From Bdellovibrio sp. (GTDB lineage: Bacteria; Myxococcota; SpSt-1050): 59,512 bases of DNA. This document shows, in pieces, positions 42,560-51,904 of this stretch (positions are counted from its first letter, which is position 1; each line of letters opens with the position of its first letter). The position numbers and the translations under genes are program-made. The notes beneath the pieces were generated by a model that was given only the letters and a program-made list of their open reading frames with translations, ran no database searches and was not told the origin of the DNA. The stretch lies in assembly GCA_020725805.1 (NCBI GenBank), contig DYEF01000055.1, forward strand, positions 1-59,512, in the 5' to 3' direction.

Positions 42560-43480
42560 ATGTCTGATTTTGCAAGACCAAAGATACTTCTGAGCAGATG
42601 TCTCGGCGTAAGTCCGGTTCGTTTTAACGGCGGAATCATAAACGATGAGTTTGTGGAGCGAATAAAACGCTTTGCTGACTATACCGATATATGCGCTGAG
42701 GTGGATATCGGACTCGTGGTTCCGCGGCCCAGAATGATAATCCGCAAAACCGGTTCAGAGTTCAGGTTTGTGGAATACGAGAGCGGGAAGGATTTTACAG
42801 AGAGCATCATCAGGTATTGTAACAGAATTTCCGGGCTTTCGGAAGAATACGACGGGGCGATTCTCAAGGCAAAACCCCCTTCCTGCGGAATTGACAATGC
42901 AAATTTTTATAACGAGCGGAACAACAAAGGCAAGACCGACGGATTTCTGGGACGTTCTCTTAAGGCTCTGCCGAACTTTCCTCTCTCTGACGAGGGAAGG
43001 CTCAGGGACGAAGGGCTCAGATACAGATTTCTTGTCTCTGTCTTCTCTCTCGCAGATCTGAGGTTTTCCCGAATAAAGAGTAGTGGTGACCTTGTGGATT
43101 TTCACACCAGATATAAGTATCTGCTTATGACCTTCTCTCCGAAAAATCTGAAAATTCTGGGTAATATCGTCGCAGGCGGTGATATTCCGGTAAGAGAGAA
43201 GGTTCTTCAGTACAAAGTATATTTCTCTGAGGCATTTTCGAAGACAGCTTCTGTTAAAAGACACTACAATACTATTCTGCACATATTCGGATATTTCTCC
43301 AAAAGACTGAGACCATCGGAGAGAACGAATTTTATTCGTCTGACAGAAAACTATCTGAAAGGCAAGAAACCCCTTTCTGTAGTGGTCGAACTTCTGCGGG
43401 GATATGCCTTAAGATTCGAGAATGATTATCTTCTGCGTCAGAGATATCTGAACCCGTATCCGGAAGAACTCGATAATTGA
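42560..43480 (+). CDS. DUF523-DUF1722 fusion protein
   Basis: A 306-residue protein with two domains. Residues 1-150 follow DUF523: ILLSRCLGVSPVRFNGG, CAEVDIGLVVPRPRM and LKAKPPSCGI. Residues about 165-300 follow DUF1722 (YbgA-like): FHTRYKYLLMTFSP at the start and LRQRYLNPYPEEL at the end. The conserved Cys residues in the first domain (C14, C45 and C114 by position) may hold a metal or Fe-S cluster. Homologous fusions occur in many bacteria, often near DNA photolyase or stress genes, with no settled function. Confidence 0.9.
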   Translation: MSDFARPKILLSRCLGVSPVRFNGGIINDEFVERIKRFADYTDICAEVDIGLVVPRPRMIIRKTGSEFRFVEYESGKDFTESIIRYCNRISGLSEEYDGAILKAKPPSCGIDNANFYNERNNKGKTDGFLGRSLKALPNFPLSDEGRLRDEGLRYRFLVSVFSLADLRFSRIKSSGDLVDFHTRYKYLLMTFSPKNLKILGNIVAGGDIPVREKVLQYKVYFSEAFSKTASVKRHYNTILHIFGYFSKRLRPSERTNFIRLTENYLKGKKPLSVVVELLRGYALRFENDYLLRQRYLNPYPEELDN

Positions 43481-45228: not shown

Positions 45229-45999
45229 TCAGTGCTTGTGGTAGTGTGTGTGGTCTATCTCTTTATGTCTGTGTCTGTGTCTGTGGACGAGGTTTGCCTT
45301 TATCAGCAGCTCTTCGTTATTGAGGAGGGAATTAATCTCGCCGTCATATAGAATTTCGTGGCTCTCCGAAAGAAGGATGGTCCTCTCTCCCAACTCCGGC
45401 GCCATCGAGAGATTGTGTGTGCTTATAACCGTTGTAATATCAAGTTCGTATAAGAGGTCTATTACCTCGCCCTGACTCTTCGGGTCGAGGTTTGCCATTG
45501 GTTCATCAAGCAGCACGAGATTAGGTCTGATTGCCAGAATTGCGGCAAGGGCGAGTTTCTGTTTCTCTCCGCCGGAGAGTTCGAAGGGCGGAGACTCCCT
45601 GTATTTTGTTAGTCCGAAAGTATTCAGAAGCTCTTCAACCCTCTCTTTTATCTCCTTTTCATCCTTTTTCATCTGCCTCATTCCGAATGCGACCTCGTCA
45701 TATACAGTCGGATTGAAGAGCATTACATCGGGCGACTGAAAGAGCATCACCACACTACTTCTAAAACTTCTTCTGTTTTCGGGATTTTTGAAATAATCAC
45801 TGTTGATCAGTAAACCCCTGAAAAAAAACTCTCCGCTCTCAGCAAATATAAGCCCGTTCATAATCTTGAGCAATGTGCTCTTGCCACACCCGTTGACTCC
45901 AAGAAGAACTACTCTCTCCCGCTCAGAAATCTTCAGGTTGATATTCCTGAGTATCGTTTTTCCGTTGTAACCAAAGGATAGATTCTTTATTTCAACCAT
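45229..45999 (-). CDS. nikO: nickel ECF transporter ATPase NikO with His-rich tail
   Basis: From ATG 45999 (an upstream in-frame start at 46044 lies inside nikQ) it has 256 residues. It is an ABC ATPase of CbiO/NikO type: Walker A GVNGCGKS (34-41), Q-loop LFQSPD, signature LSGGEKQKLALA, Walker B LVLLDEPMANLDP and H-loop STHN. The last 18 residues hold eight histidines (HRHRHRHK and HTHYHKH), a metal-binding tail that fits nickel handling. It overlaps nikQ by 8 bp and is the last gene of the operon. With NikM and NikQ it forms a group-I energy-coupling-factor importer. Confidence 0.92.
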   Translation of the reverse strand: MVEIKNLSFGYNGKTILRNINLKISERERVVLLGVNGCGKSTLLKIMNGLIFAESGEFFFRGLLINSDYFKNPENRRSFRSSVVMLFQSPDVMLFNPTVYDEVAFGMRQMKKDEKEIKERVEELLNTFGLTKYRESPPFELSGGEKQKLALAAILAIRPNLVLLDEPMANLDPKSQGEVIDLLYELDITTVISTHNLSMAPELGERTILLSESHEILYDGEINSLLNNEELLIKANLVHRHRHRHKEIDHTHYHKH

Positions 46000-46558
46000 C
46001 AAGAAAGCCTCTCGAACGCATCGCAAGAGAGGTCTCTTTAGCATTGTACAGCGATTTAGTAAAGAAGAGATTTATTACCCGCTCGATGAGAATTTTTATA
46101 TGTGTCTTCTCTCTGACAATTATCCTGCTTGCGTGTGCCTCTTTAAGGTCTGAATATGTCCTGATATAATTCTGAATCTGGCTGTATGAGAGTGTAAACA
46201 GATACGAAAATGTCTCCGAAAAAGATAGTGCGAGGGGAAGATTGGTGTGAGATGCAAAAAAGAATGTGAGACAGGTTATTGTGAGGACACGGAGGTTGAT
46301 GAGCAGGATATAGCCGGTGTCAATATCCGACCTGAAAAATGTGAATAGCAGGTAGGATAGCGATATTACTACATTGAAGACGATAAAACTGAAAAGAATC
46401 CTTTTGAAGGACCTTCTGAAAAACGAAAGGTCACTGATAATAAGTATTAGAAGAAGTGCCAGATAGAAAATTTCCGAATGAATTATCGTAAGCAGCAGGA
46501 CGGCTGACAGATATAATAATAGTTTAATTCTTTCCTTCAAAGAGTTTCTCCCTGTCAA
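45992..46558 (-). CDS. nikQ: nickel ECF transporter transmembrane protein NikQ
   Basis: A 188-residue membrane protein, short for the family (usually 220-260). It has four or so helices in the first 110 residues, starting after KERIKLLLYL. The C-terminal coupling region contains SLAMRSRGFLDG, the Ala-Arg-Gly motif that contacts the ATPase in CbiQ/EcfT proteins. It overlaps nikM by 35 bp and nikO by 8 bp, so assembly is probably co-translational. Confidence 0.88.
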   Translation of the reverse strand: MTGRNSLKERIKLLLYLSAVLLLTIIHSEIFYLALLLILIISDLSFFRRSFKRILFSFIVFNVVISLSYLLFTFFRSDIDTGYILLINLRVLTITCLTFFFASHTNLPLALSFSETFSYLFTLSYSQIQNYIRTYSDLKEAHASRIIVREKTHIKILIERVINLFFTKSLYNAKETSLAMRSRGFLDG

Positions 46559-47180
46559 ACCTTCTGACGACCTTTAAGGCAATAAGGGTAAGCATTCCTT
46601 CCGCAATACCTACAAATATATGCGGGATAATCATTGCTGGGAGTGTGACCGTAAGACCAAAGGGGAAGAAGAGAGGTTTGCCGCTCGTATCTGTTGCAAT
46701 GAGTGGCTGTATCCCTAATATTACTGCCAGAACAGTTGCCGAAAGGATAATTGCAAAAAATGAAGATAGAAATATTCCAATGTTCTTATGTCTGCTGAAA
46801 GGTTTGAGTATGAAACAGATTGTATAACTTCCTATAAAACCGATTGCGAGAACATTTACTGGTAGAGTGGTTATTCCACCGTTTCCGAAGAGAAGTGCCT
46901 GAATCAGCAATACAAGACTTGTGCACAGAAAGGATATCTCTGGTCCGAAGAGGACGGTGAGTGTGCCGATTCCGAGGGCGTGGGCGGTCGTTCCTCCGGG
47001 AAGCGGGACTACCACCATCATCAGGACAAATGAGAAGGCAGTCGCGGCGCTCAGAAACGGGAGGGTCTCTGAACTCAGAAAATTCTTCATTTTTCTGACA
47101 GAGTACGCCCACAAGCCCACAGATACGGCATATGCAGGGATATATACCTTTGGAGAGATGAACCCGTCAGGTATGTGCAT
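46524..47180 (-). CDS. nikM: nickel ECF transporter substrate-binding protein NikM
   Basis: A 218-residue CbiM/NikM protein of normal length. It starts MHIPDGFIS, the invariant N-terminus whose Met-1/His-2 bind the metal; the third ligand is visible as His-67 in GGTTAHALG. Seven membrane helices are predicted by hydrophobicity. The family imports Ni or Co. The neighbours nikK/nikL (DUF4198 and a NikL-type protein instead of CbiN) favour nickel. Confidence 0.93.
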   Translation of the reverse strand: MHIPDGFISPKVYIPAYAVSVGLWAYSVRKMKNFLSSETLPFLSAATAFSFVLMMVVVPLPGGTTAHALGIGTLTVLFGPEISFLCTSLVLLIQALLFGNGGITTLPVNVLAIGFIGSYTICFILKPFSRHKNIGIFLSSFFAIILSATVLAVILGIQPLIATDTSGKPLFFPFGLTVTLPAMIIPHIFVGIAEGMLTLIALKVVRRFDREKLFEGKN

Positions 47181-47229
47181 AGATAATCCTTCTTTCAGGT
47201 TGCCCGTGTATTCTTTTCATTCTCTTTTC

Positions 47230-48219
47230 TCACAGAAGGGCCGAGAACGTAAAAACAATTCTTACATTCTCCTTCCCCTCGGCCCCCTGCTGGTCGTCTG
47301 ATTCGTTGAGTATTGTGTAGACCGGAAACTTGGTACCGAGTCCGATGCTCACATTATTGACATAAGCCCTCAGTCCCGGAAGAATATAAAAGATGTGTCC
47401 ACCAGTTGCCTCAGCCCCTTTGCCGTTCTCGATATCTCTTCCCAGATTCAGATATGTCCCCTCGAGATTTGCATCGAGCCTGAATTTCTTCTCTGTGACA
47501 GTGAAAAGTCTGTAATTGAGGGCTGTATTTATTCTGAATTCCGGACCGAATTCGAGTCTTGTCCCATCTCTGTATTCATTCTCGAAAAACTTGATATAAC
47601 TGATATCAAACACGTAGGTAAACCTCTCTGCAAAACCCTTATTGGTAGCAAAGCCGAAAGATGCCGATGGTTTACCGAATCCAAGAGCCATTCCGGGGTC
47701 GATATTCCCCTCCGCATCAGCAATATTTGCAAATCCGGTCGGAATTGTTACACCGCCGTAAAGGGCGAAATGCCAGTCCATCATATCATCCAGACTCTCG
47801 TTAGGAGGAGTGAGCCTGAGTCCTTCGTCATACTTGAAACCGAAAGTGGCAAATATGGACGGGTCGGCGAATCCGGCGGTATTGTAGGAATTGTTCTCCA
47901 CAACCTTTACATTGAACGGTGCAAAGACATAGAGCGAGAGATAAGATGTCAATCCATAACCCAGTCCATACATCATAAATGCACTGTAATCGCCCTCGTC
48001 GTCTCTCTCTTTCGTAAGTTTTTTGAAGTTTGCATAGTCCAGTTTGTAATACATAAGGACGGACTTTGCAGGCAGAGACTGTGATGTAGATGTCTCGAGC
48101 GGTGCACCGGGACCTTCGAGTCCGACGGCACCGACCGCCGCAACACCGTGGTGTGCATTCGCAGACACCGAAACGAATACAAAAAGAATCAGACAGAAGC
48201 TAATTACTACCTTTTTCAC
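47230..48219 (-). CDS. outer-membrane beta-barrel protein of the nickel operon
   Basis: From GTG 48219, which follows AGGAGGAAGGAAC, it has 329 residues; an in-frame TTG at 48237 lies before the ribosome site. The signal peptide ends ...VSANAHHG, so the mature N-terminus is His-rich. The body is a run of amphipathic beta strands with short turns (FMMYGLGYGLTSYLSLYVFAPF and FTYVFDISYIKFF are examples), typical of an outer-membrane porin-like barrel. Its first 20 bp overlap the end of nikL. A role in moving metal across the outer membrane is inferred from the operon only. Confidence 0.85.
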   Translation of the reverse strand: MKKVVISFCLILFVFVSVSANAHHGVAAVGAVGLEGPGAPLETSTSQSLPAKSVLMYYKLDYANFKKLTKERDDEGDYSAFMMYGLGYGLTSYLSLYVFAPFNVKVVENNSYNTAGFADPSIFATFGFKYDEGLRLTPPNESLDDMMDWHFALYGGVTIPTGFANIADAEGNIDPGMALGFGKPSASFGFATNKGFAERFTYVFDISYIKFFENEYRDGTRLEFGPEFRINTALNYRLFTVTEKKFRLDANLEGTYLNLGRDIENGKGAEATGGHIFYILPGLRAYVNNVSIGLGTKFPVYTILNESDDQQGAEGKENVRIVFTFSALL

Positions 48220-48646
48220 GTTCCTTCCTCCTGACAAAGATGTTAAGGACCGAAAAAATTATTAATATCAGTCCGGCTCCGAATACAGGTTTTGCAAATC
48301 TTTCAAAAAACCCTATTTTCTTTTCTTTGAGAATAAGCCCTTCCTTTACATCTATCCCGAATGTTGTGCCGTGCCCGTCATCCGAGAAGGCCTTTATCTG
48401 CCATTTCCCGGGGCTGTCCGGTACGAAGGCAATTCTTCCCGATTCGTTTGTCCTTCCTACCTGATATGCGGCTTTCTCGTTGCCCGGTTTGTAGATCTCA
48501 TAGGATTCATAGGCAAACTTCGTCCCGTCTGCGTAATATATATCAACTATGTATGCGCTCCCCTGTTCGACCGAGTAGTGTACATCGTGGGCATAAAGCG
48601 AAAACGGAACAAGAAACAAACCCAGAAATAGAAAGATCCTTTTCAT
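48200..48646 (-). CDS. nikL: NikL-type nickel-uptake accessory protein
   Basis: A 148-residue protein: signal peptide ending LYA|HDVHYS, a periplasmic beta domain (GRTNESGRIAFVPDSPGKW, IKAFSDDGHGTTFGIDV) and a C-terminal membrane helix (about 118-140) followed by a basic tail. This layout is that of NikL, the two-part accessory component that replaces CbiN in NikKLMQO systems. The His at the mature N-terminus and HGTTFG motif are likely metal contacts. It starts 4 bp after nikK ends. Confidence 0.8.
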   Translation of the reverse strand: MKRIFLFLGLFLVPFSLYAHDVHYSVEQGSAYIVDIYYADGTKFAYESYEIYKPGNEKAAYQVGRTNESGRIAFVPDSPGKWQIKAFSDDGHGTTFGIDVKEGLILKEKKIGFFERFAKPVFGAGLILIIFSVLNIFVRRKEREKGSN

Positions 48647-48650
48647 ATCA

Positions 48651-49343
48651 TTATTCCTTTACTATAAAGTTGAGGTTAGTTGTAATTATCCGCTCGTCAG
48701 TCTTTACCCCGTCCTCTTTTTCGGTAACTGATGCGGAAATCACCTGAAAACCCGGTTTTTTGACTGTAATATTTATATTTCCGTCCGGATCCGTTGTCCC
48801 TCGAGGCTTATCATCATAGGCTACAACCACATCCTTTGCAGGCTTGCCTTTATAGAAAAGCCTGAGTCTCAGTTTGTCTCCTGTTTTTATCTTCGAGAGA
48901 TCCGATGTGGGGACGATTTCGAGGTCGTCCGATAAAGGTTGCTGAGCCTTTAGAGTGAGATTTTTGACATACTTTACCGACTCGAAGGAGAGCCAGCTCT
49001 TTACCACCTGTTTTTCGTTTTCCTTTGATACATTTTTTGTCCCATATACCGTCTTTGTCCAGTAACCAGAGCTAAACATTACGAACACAGCATCACAGTC
49101 TTTTGAAAAGGTTATCGGGTATTTATTCTCAGTTGAGATATCTTCTACCTTATGACCCTTCTGACATTTTATATATTTTACATACTCTGGTTTATACTCA
49201 ATAACTGATTCCCCACTATGAGAGGAGTGTTTATGTCCATAGAGTAGTTTATAAGTTCCATTTTCCTCCTCAATCCAGAGGTCGTGTGCGAAGACATTAT
49301 TAAGACATAGAAACAGAGACAGACCCAGAATCAGCCTTTTCAT
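48651..49343 (-). CDS. nikK: NikK-type (DUF4198) nickel-uptake accessory protein
   Basis: A 230-residue protein with signal peptide ending FA|HDLWIE, a DUF4198 hallmark. A His-containing strand (YKLLYGHKHSSHSGE) probably handles metal. The C-terminal Ig-like domain carries the KPAKDVVVAYDD and TTDPDGNINITVKKPG motifs of DUF4198. DUF4198 proteins are the NikK components of nickel ECF systems. It is the first gene of the operon, with GGAGG upstream and a strong promoter. Confidence 0.85.
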   Translation of the reverse strand: MKRLILGLSLFLCLNNVFAHDLWIEEENGTYKLLYGHKHSSHSGESVIEYKPEYVKYIKCQKGHKVEDISTENKYPITFSKDCDAVFVMFSSGYWTKTVYGTKNVSKENEKQVVKSWLSFESVKYVKNLTLKAQQPLSDDLEIVPTSDLSKIKTGDKLRLRLFYKGKPAKDVVVAYDDKPRGTTDPDGNINITVKKPGFQVISASVTEKEDGVKTDERIITTNLNFIVKE

Positions 49344-49379: not shown

Positions 49380-49408
49380 AAAATATATAAATTCGTGCTA
49401 CCTGTCAA
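49380..49408 (-). promoter_or_regulatory. promoter of the nickel operon
   Basis: On the minus strand, TTGACA (49408-49403), a 17-bp spacer and TATTTT (49385-49380); TATATT (49387-49382) is an alternative -10. The expected leader is about 30 nt. The repeated element at 49388-49401 fills most of the spacer. Confidence 0.65.
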
Positions 49409-49456
49409 GAGGAAAATTCAAATATTATATGGCATATTTTAGCTAAATCGTGCTAC
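49388..49456. promoter_or_regulatory. duplicated TCGTGCTAC element, candidate metal-regulator operator
   Basis: TAAATTCGTGCTAC (49388-49401) and TAAATCGTGCTAC (49444-49456) are direct repeats sharing TCGTGCTAC, 55 bp apart. The first sits between the -35 and -10 boxes, where a repressor would block transcription. It does not look like the NikR GTATGA inverted repeat. Confidence 0.5.
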
Positions 49457-50797: not shown

Positions 50798-51904
50798 ATG
50801 CCCAGAGTATATATAATCGACGCAGGATATGAAAATGTAAAAGAGAAATTAAAACCGGTTCTGTGTAATTATTTACATAGTGCGGGGCCGAAATCTGTCC
50901 TGCTCAAGCCGAATCTTTTAGCCGGCGCTCCGCCCGGTAAGGCGGTCTGTACCCATCCTCTCTTTGTTAAGGCTGTTGCAGATATTGCCGAGGAGATGGG
51001 CATAAAGGTGGCGGTCTCCGATAATCCGGGAGTGAGCGGATACGGTTCATCTTTAAAGGCTGCTAAAGATTCGGGTCTTTTTGAACTGGTGGGAGAAAAA
51101 TTTGAAAATCCTGCACAATCTCCCGAAAGAGCAGGTGTCAAATCCGGATATACAGACTCGTTTGTTGTCAGCGGTAATATATTACACGCAGAATATGTAA
51201 TAAATTTACCAAAGTTCAAGACGCACTCCCTGACCCTTTTTTCAGGTGCGGTAAAGAATATGTTCGGGATTTTAGTTGGGGGAGAGAAGGCGAGGGCCCA
51301 TTCGATTGGAAAGAGCAGGGACGAGTTTGCGGAGCTTCTGGTAGATATCTATAATATCCGCGTTCCGGAACTGACGGTTATGGATGCAATCTGGGGAATG
51401 GAGGGCTCCGGTCCCTCAAACGGAAGCATGAGAGAGATCAACAAGATTCTTGCATCGGATAATGGTTTTGCCGTCGATGCCGTCTGTGCAAATATGATGG
51501 GACTTAAGCCGGAGGAGATTCCGTATCTGAGAGTGGCCAAAGAGAGAAATCTGATTGATTACGAAGAAATAGAGATAATCGGAAATCCGGAGGTGCTTAA
51601 AGATTTCAGGATTCCTCCTACATTTATGAAGAGAAATTTTGCGGGGAGCGCCTTTATCGGCTTTGTTAATTCCTTTATATTCGAGCATTTTATAAAAGGT
51701 CCGGCAAGGCTGAAACTGAAGAGGAAGAGGTGTACGAAGTGTTATGTGTGCCTGAGGCAGTGTCCGGTCAAGGCAATCAGTAAGGATAAAGAGGAATTTC
51801 CGCTTATCGATAAAAAGAAATGCATCGGTTGCTATTGCTGTGATGAACTCTGTCCGGAGAATGCGTGGAGACATACGGGGATAATGAGAATACTGGCAAA
51901 ATAG
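50798..51904 (+). CDS. DUF362 protein with C-terminal two-cluster ferredoxin domain
   Basis: A 368-residue protein. Residues 1-285 follow DUF362: VLLKPNLLAGAPPGKAVCTH, INLPKFKTHSLTLFSGAVKNMFG and VMDAIWGMEGSGPSNG. Residues about 310-360 hold two [4Fe-4S] motifs, CTKCYVCLRQCP and CIGCYCCDELCP. Such proteins are soluble redox proteins of unsettled function; the combination is common in anaerobes. No good ribosome site precedes ATG 50798. It ends before a short non-coding gap carrying the string TAGTCCACGG (51932-51941), which is also found at 28568. Confidence 0.93.
   Translation: MPRVYIIDAGYENVKEKLKPVLCNYLHSAGPKSVLLKPNLLAGAPPGKAVCTHPLFVKAVADIAEEMGIKVAVSDNPGVSGYGSSLKAAKDSGLFELVGEKFENPAQSPERAGVKSGYTDSFVVSGNILHAEYVINLPKFKTHSLTLFSGAVKNMFGILVGGEKARAHSIGKSRDEFAELLVDIYNIRVPELTVMDAIWGMEGSGPSNGSMREINKILASDNGFAVDAVCANMMGLKPEEIPYLRVAKERNLIDYEEIEIIGNPEVLKDFRIPPTFMKRNFAGSAFIGFVNSFIFEHFIKGPARLKLKRKRCTKCYVCLRQCPVKAISKDKEEFPLIDKKKCIGCYCCDELCPENAWRHTGIMRILAK

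Follow-up and report, generated by a model that had tools for sequence, protein, structure and literature searches.

A nikKLMQO operon with a putative TonB-independent outer-membrane channel and predicted N-terminal histidines in its exported proteins

Introduction

Entry of nickel through the outer membrane is generally ascribed to TonB-dependent receptors or unspecific porins. Several TonB-dependent nickel receptors, including FrpB4, FecA3 and CntO, are listed in PMC11247825. At the inner membrane, one of the described nickel importers is the energy-coupling factor (ECF) transporter NikKLMQO, in which NikK and NikL are known as accessory parts that replace NikN (PMC2667541, PMC545781). Here we describe a nikKLMQO operon of Bdellovibrio sp. 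(GTDB lineage Bacteria; Myxococcota; SpSt-1050), found on contig DYEF01000055.1 of assembly GCA_020725805.1; the 59,512-nucleotide stretch analysed is called the window below. The window encodes NikK, NikL, NikM, NikQ and NikO with their conserved residues and no NikN, the membership of NikQ and NikL in the system being weakly backed by public models. Unlike the published descriptions of NikKLMQO, the operon has an outer-membrane component, a β-barrel protein encoded between nikL and nikM. No outer-membrane partner of nikKLMQO is described in the searchable literature, by which subscription journals are largely not covered.

Two further systems are close to parts of this locus. A relative of NikK, IsDUF4198 (PDB 9GCB), was solved in 2025; its N-terminal His and its His18 form a facial, non-canonical histidine brace that binds Ni2+, with a Kd of 18 nM for Ni and Ni favoured over Cu (PMC12537917). 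That paper treats DUF4198, DUF6702 and anglerases and notes TonB receptors beside DUF4198, and its main text is without NikL, the barrel, the outer membrane or a porin (PMC12537917). The barrel resembles the COG4313 channel Pput2725 (PDB 4RL8), whose first 14 residues enter the lumen from the periplasm and fold there, with Glu2 and Gly6 stabilising the lumen plug; known COG4313 members are tied to hydrophobic compounds (PMC4493636).

The barrel gene is linked to the nik genes

The six genes nikK-nikL-barrel-nikM-nikQ-nikO form one operon on the minus strand of the window (45229-49343), in which neighbouring genes overlap or lie no more than 49 bp apart, as the initial annotation had claimed. 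To place the barrel in a wider setting, genomes were scanned for NikM with one genome per species, which gave 80 loci; with the window and the locus of one relative the set came to 82. A close relative of the barrel was present in 38 of the 82 nikM loci, always beside nik genes, and the gene order of the window was kept in 38 loci, apart from small overlaps and artefacts of open reading frame (ORF) starts. When the comparison was restricted to loci with 2.5 kb or more of sequence ahead of nikM, nikK, nikL and the barrel occurred together in 32 loci and nikK and nikL without the barrel in three; 14 loci with nikL only and 20 with neither gene held no barrel. The barrel was thus found in 32/35 loci with nikK and in 0/34 without it, indicating that it goes with NikK.

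Since the 82 loci were chosen via NikM, the unbiased part of the survey is a draw of whole genomes for which the barrel profile was the only query. Strong matches, broken copies counted, were obtained in 2/299 Pseudomonadota (one of them the seed genome), 11/298 Campylobacterota and about 30/136 Aquificota. The initial annotation had considered that the barrel might lie mostly away from metal genes. This was not the case, as nik genes adjoin every barrel of the first set (38/38) and lie within 1.5 kb in 42/43 strong loci of the draw, the remaining one being a contig-edge fragment. The gene order of the window also recurs among the draw's matches from Pseudomonadota, Campylobacterota and Aquificota.

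The relatives of the window carry the barrel patchily (2/58, the window's own genome counted), and the 32 complete copies come from nine phyla, going by submitter labels. One of these labels, Acidobacteria for locus L032, is doubtful because the same genome also appears in the Aquificota draw. In the barrel tree, the Pseudomonadota copies form one clade and the Campylobacterota copies another. In Mantel tests over 31 loci, barrel distances correlated with the distances for NikK (r 0.86), NikL (r 0.87) and NikM (r 0.84), at p=0.001, so that the barrel and the nik genes appear to be co-inherited and, on these alignments, the nik operon with its barrel appears to have been inherited as a unit. 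A search for spread by plasmids gave no barrel match in plasmids.

Some loci deviate from the common layout. The order is changed to nikK-barrel-nikL-nikM in L122. In the Aquificota loci L025 and L130 the barrel is split into two reading frames, and in L132 it is shortened; the other nik genes of these loci look intact.

The barrel is predicted to be a 12-stranded channel starting with His-His-Gly

The barrel matches PF13557 with 38.6 bits, above the curated cut-off of 22. Its 307-residue mature protein was modelled with AlphaFold2 (AF2) as a 12-stranded barrel, with a predicted local distance difference test score (pLDDT) of 83 and a predicted template-modelling score (pTM) of 0.82. The family is usually annotated as phenol degradation. 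A sequence search against the PDB found no relatives; in a Foldseek search of the model, Pput2725 (4RL8; template-modelling (TM) score 0.77) and FapF (5O68; TM 0.76) were matched best, and other barrels far more poorly. The likeness to Pput2725 thus extends to the strand number, a segment ahead of strand 1, the overall fold and the Pfam family. The two proteins share 14% identity in the structural alignment, and the barrel adds the His-His-Gly (HHG) start, many invariant charged residues and a fixed nickel-operon context. FapF is an amyloid secretion channel of the same barrel fold class; nothing amyloid-related turned up at the window. The barrel was not taken for a TonB-dependent receptor, as it has no Pfam plug or TonB barrel domain and 12 rather than 22 strands, and the view of the initial annotation that it is a non-TonB barrel was borne out by both the domain scan and the model.

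Predicted cleavage places HHG at the mature N-terminus in all complete barrels of the first set (36/36) and in all high-scoring barrels of the draw (40/40), the residue before it being Ala in 31/31. The N-terminal histidine that had been proposed for the window's barrel is therefore found in every complete copy. As a background, His was seen at the +1 position in 4/147 other exported ORFs of the same loci, a crude estimate given that the signal-peptide rule behind it misplaces many known cleavage sites; because of this, the claim is carried by the family alignments. The seven weak matches to the barrel profile (<50 bits) start with AGPITFNS or have no start, and are without nik genes. Likewise, 30 sampled Pseudomonadota PF13557 loci showed no nik genes and no HH in the frames read, a count that is approximate since the longest ORF chosen was in some loci not the barrel frame.

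The invariant His columns of the barrel are mature positions 1, 2 and 128 only. His128 belongs to a segment, ESLDD..DWHF, with the invariant columns E119, S120, L121, D123, W127, H128 and F129. A 31-residue N-terminal segment precedes strand 1 in the model, with a pLDDT below 50 for residues 1-15. In the usual topology of outer-membrane barrels, the N-terminus and the short turns are periplasmic. By this rule the turns 67-72, 174-178, 219-224 and 265-268 of the model would be periplasmic, and the turn 108-127 that leads into strand 5 with the invariant ESLDD..DWHF would thereby be placed on the periplasmic side as well. His1, His2 and His128 with its nearby acidic residues may then lie at the same mouth of the barrel. 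Charged residues or His make up 19/48 invariant columns of the mature barrel, a share more in keeping with a polar cargo than with the hydrophobic one of the known COG4313 channels.

N-terminal histidines of NikK and NikL

NikK is a DUF4198 protein (Pfam PF10670, 68.7 bits), with H1, G17, H18, T79, G82, P149 and G169 as family invariants in mature numbering; His1 and His18 are its sole invariant His columns. The +1 residue was His in all complete aligned homologues and the -1 residue A, G or S in 31/31, so that the mature start proposed for the window's NikK (His-Asp after Ala) holds family-wide. The family of the window's NikK aligns to 9GCB from His1 over the whole mature length (E=4.9e-26), with both Ni ligands kept. 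NikK is thus exported and combines a mature N-terminal His with His18, the features of a DUF4198 nickel histidine brace. The initial annotation had been reminded of copper His-brace proteins: the kind of site was right, and the metal is nickel rather than copper in the solved relative. A canonical copper brace, the T-shaped N-terminal His site of LPMO type, was accordingly dropped for NikK in favour of the published nickel brace (PMC12537917). Judged by these alignments, the initial annotation read the N-terminal His of NikK correctly, and for this protein the reading is already in the literature.

NikL matched the NCBIfam NikL family weakly (33.7 bits against a cut-off of 100). Its only invariant His columns over 41 sequences are mature H1 and H73. 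The -1 residue was A, G or S in 43/45, and the +1 residue was His in all complete rows; here too, the proposed start of His-Asp after Ala extends to the whole family. In the AF2 model (pLDDT 87.7), strands cover residues 3-81 and a helix residues 94-127, and comparison with Zcp/DUF4198-type and other beta-sandwich folds gave weak matches (TM 0.4-0.5). The recurrence of a predicted exposed N-terminal His in NikL is new. Rather than removing the histidines, an outcome that the initial annotation had allowed for, the predicted cleavage exposes them, and they are invariant in the barrel, NikK and NikL alike.

TonB-dependent receptors beside nikK

In L038, a locus with nikK and no barrel, a TonB-dependent receptor is encoded directly upstream of nikK. 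When Pseudomonadota were searched for NikK (at least 50 bits), a TonB receptor lay directly beside nikK in 6/14 loci without a detected barrel, or in 6/15 if L175, a locus limited by its contig, is included; as the search used a single receptor as query, this is a lower bound. The receptors beside nikK in L176, L177, L181, L184, L185, L188 and L038 are candidate nickel receptors. The same search around all 38 barrel loci detected none, within the limited sensitivity of the query. The presence of receptors beside barrel-less nikK and their absence from barrel loci supports an outer-membrane role of the barrel. The barrel and the TonB nickel receptors would have a presumed role in common, nickel passage across the outer membrane; unlike these receptors, the barrel has no plug domain. 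The two can be read as alternative outer-membrane gates that feed the same periplasmic carrier.

NikM, NikQ and NikO

NikM belongs to the CbiM family. Over the 82 loci, H2, H67 and E194 were conserved in 82/82 and H187 in 81/82; the Met-His start and the His67 picked out in the initial annotation are therefore both kept throughout. NikQ alone falls below the CbiQ cut-off (16.6 of 25), and its family recurs at the same place in 81 loci. NikO scored 184-189 bits with ECF ATPase models, below the cut-offs of those models. The tail of eight histidines described for NikO does contain eight, interspersed rather than contiguous. At least four His within the last 30 residues were found in 34/36 barrel operons and 28/37 others; by this comparison the His tail belongs to nikMQO operons more widely and does not mark those with a barrel. 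The tail motif ANLVHxHRHRHGxxEHRHxHxHDW is strongly conserved whether or not the operon has the barrel, and this extends to distant lineages. Among the barrel-less nikMQO loci, L012 adjoins NiFe-hydrogenase genes, and L040 and L056 adjoin hypF.

Gene layout, regulation and genome context

The features of the operon are collected in Table 1. The refined start of the barrel gene is a GTG at 48219, preceded by AGGAGG. For nikO, the mechanical ORF begins at 46044, and the ATG at 45999 is the more likely start.

Table 1. Positions in the window of the nik operon genes, of the residues discussed and of candidate upstream sites
Feature	Position	Strand	Description
nikK	48651..49343	-	Exported DUF4198 nickel-binding protein (by homology), 230 aa; predicted mature start His (residue 20)
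nikK mature His1 codon	49284..49286	-	Invariant column; -1 residue A/G/S
nikK mature His18 codon	49233..49235	-	Invariant column; Ni ligand in 9GCB (PMC12537917)
nikL	48200..48646	-	148 aa; predicted exported beta-sandwich domain and single C-terminal membrane helix; predicted mature start His (residue 20)
Outer-membrane barrel gene	47230..48219	-	329 aa; predicted 12-stranded COG4313/PF13557-type channel (PF13557 match, AF2/Foldseek)
Barrel mature N-terminus, His-His-Gly codons	48145..48153	-	Invariant in all complete copies
Barrel ESLDD..DWHF segment	47767..47799	-	Mature 119-129, invariant His128; turn between strands 4 and 5
nikM	46524..47180	-	ECF S component, 218 aa; Met-His N-terminus, His67; PF01891 187.8 bits
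nikQ	45992..46558	-	ECF T component; weak CbiQ match; homologues in 81 loci
nikO	45229..45999	-	ECF ATPase; PF00005 104 bits
nikO C-terminal tail	45232..45288	-	Eight interspersed histidines; kept across nikMQO operons
Promoter-like site TTGACA-17-TATTTT	49380..49408	-	Upstream of nikK; top-scoring (10/12), the number of such sites being what chance gives
Candidate NikR half-site GTAGCACGAATT	49390..49401	-	Inside promoter spacer; second copy 49445-49456

The sequence GTAGCACGAWTT is present in two copies ahead of nikK, one of them between the -35 and -10 of the promoter-like site, and two of its three exact matches in the genome are found here. The window carries the half-site GTAGCACG twice, with an imperfect palindrome. 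Good palindromes are present upstream of nikK in the relative L002 (GTAGCACG-N11-CGTGTTAC) and in L008 (GTAACACG-N11-CGTATTAC), and both match the reversed NikR signal of PMC545781. A full NikR palindrome was rejected for the window, which has half-sites with an imperfect remainder, and the exact matches are too few to call a regulon. From these sites, NikR control of the window operon is likely. No Rfam match that would point to riboswitch control was found in the window.

By family searches, the genome (3.29 Mb, 115 contigs) encodes one such barrel, one NikR and two [NiFe]-hydrogenase large subunits. NikR, the hydrogenase subunits, the NikR-like half-sites and the lack of a riboswitch match were considered for the choice between nickel and cobalt as cargo, with nickel presumed here. 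Two genes near the nik operon lie on the plus strand: 50798-51904, divergent from the operon, encodes a DUF362 protein with a 4Fe-4S ferredoxin domain, for which no nickel link is shown, and 42560-43480 encodes fused 2-thiouracil desulfurase and DUF1722 domains.

Discussion

The nickel site of NikK and the ECF importer are known; what is new, within the literature searched, is that a barrel with a predicted N-terminal HHG is conserved in the operon. Considering its linkage to nikK and its predicted fold, we think it probable that the barrel is a dedicated TonB-independent channel for nickel or a small nickel chelate, feeding NikK, NikL and NikMQO. Free Ni2+ or a small nickel chelate would enter through the 12-stranded barrel of COG4313/PF13557 fold, where HHG, at the periplasmic mouth or in the lumen and close to His128 and the acidic turn, would form the first metal site. 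Capture by NikK (His1/His18) and by NikL (His1/His73), which is anchored in the membrane, would come next, after which NikM (Met1-His2, His67) would receive the metal and NikQ and NikO would pump it in. Three steps of this route are inferred: that nickel passes the barrel, that HHG and NikL bind metal, and that the metal goes directly from protein to protein. The fuller claim, that the N-terminal His of the barrel, NikK and NikL, each through its amino group and imidazole, relay metal from a non-TonB nickel channel to the Met-His of NikM, has in our view an even chance of being right.

Several points weigh against a dedicated nickel channel. Only one COG4313 channel, Pput2725, has been studied, and transport of hydrophilic solutes by it was considered improbable (PMC4493636). 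Residues 1-15 of the barrel are poorly modelled, and the position suggested for them follows the COG4313 structure. The three nikKL operons without a barrel and the broken (L025, L130) or shortened (L132) copies suggest that it is dispensable in places. In the genome of the window, any of four encoded TonB-receptor plug domains could serve nickel as well. Transport and metal binding by the barrel are thus a proposal from sequence and model.

Among the alternatives, an unlikely one is that nickel enters the barrel bound to an organic ligand (a metallophore, His or citrate), as a complex that is maybe moderately hydrophobic, by the lateral path proposed for COG4313 channels, and that HHG then strips the metal from the ligand in the periplasm. 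The ties of the COG4313 family to hydrophobic molecules and the N-terminus folded into the lumen (PMC4493636) would suit such a cargo, as would the TonB receptors, usual carriers of metal complexes, that NikK sometimes adjoins. The charged residues in many invariant barrel columns speak against it, and no ligand-biosynthesis gene lies beside the operon in the window, to which the survey of flanks was confined. It is quite improbable that the barrel works outwards, as an export or secretion pore linked to metal, releasing excess nickel or a metallophore or taking NikK to the cell surface: the structural match to FapF is as good as that to COG4313, but the barrel sits between two import components of an import operon and follows nikK, and no efflux-system gene was seen near the operon. 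Least credible is a general small-solute porin that travels with the operon, its HHG being structural or kept for signal-peptidase processing; although N-terminal residues of COG4313 channels do stabilise the lumen plug (PMC4493636), barrel presence follows nikK, the +1 His is shared with NikK and NikL and the Ni site is proven in a NikK relative, and we rejected such a hitch-hiking porin because the HHG subfamily alone sits in nik operons, the rest of the PF13557 proteins examined being without HH and not next to nik genes.

The invariant HHG start of the barrel offers a two-codon test, and the N-terminal His in three exported partners makes hand-over directly testable. If the barrel is indeed a dedicated nickel channel, this small TonB-independent protein would be a new route of nickel entry in about nine phyla, with many hydrogen- or sulfur-oxidising lineages among them, and would give a concrete meaning to a barrel family now labelled phenol degradation.

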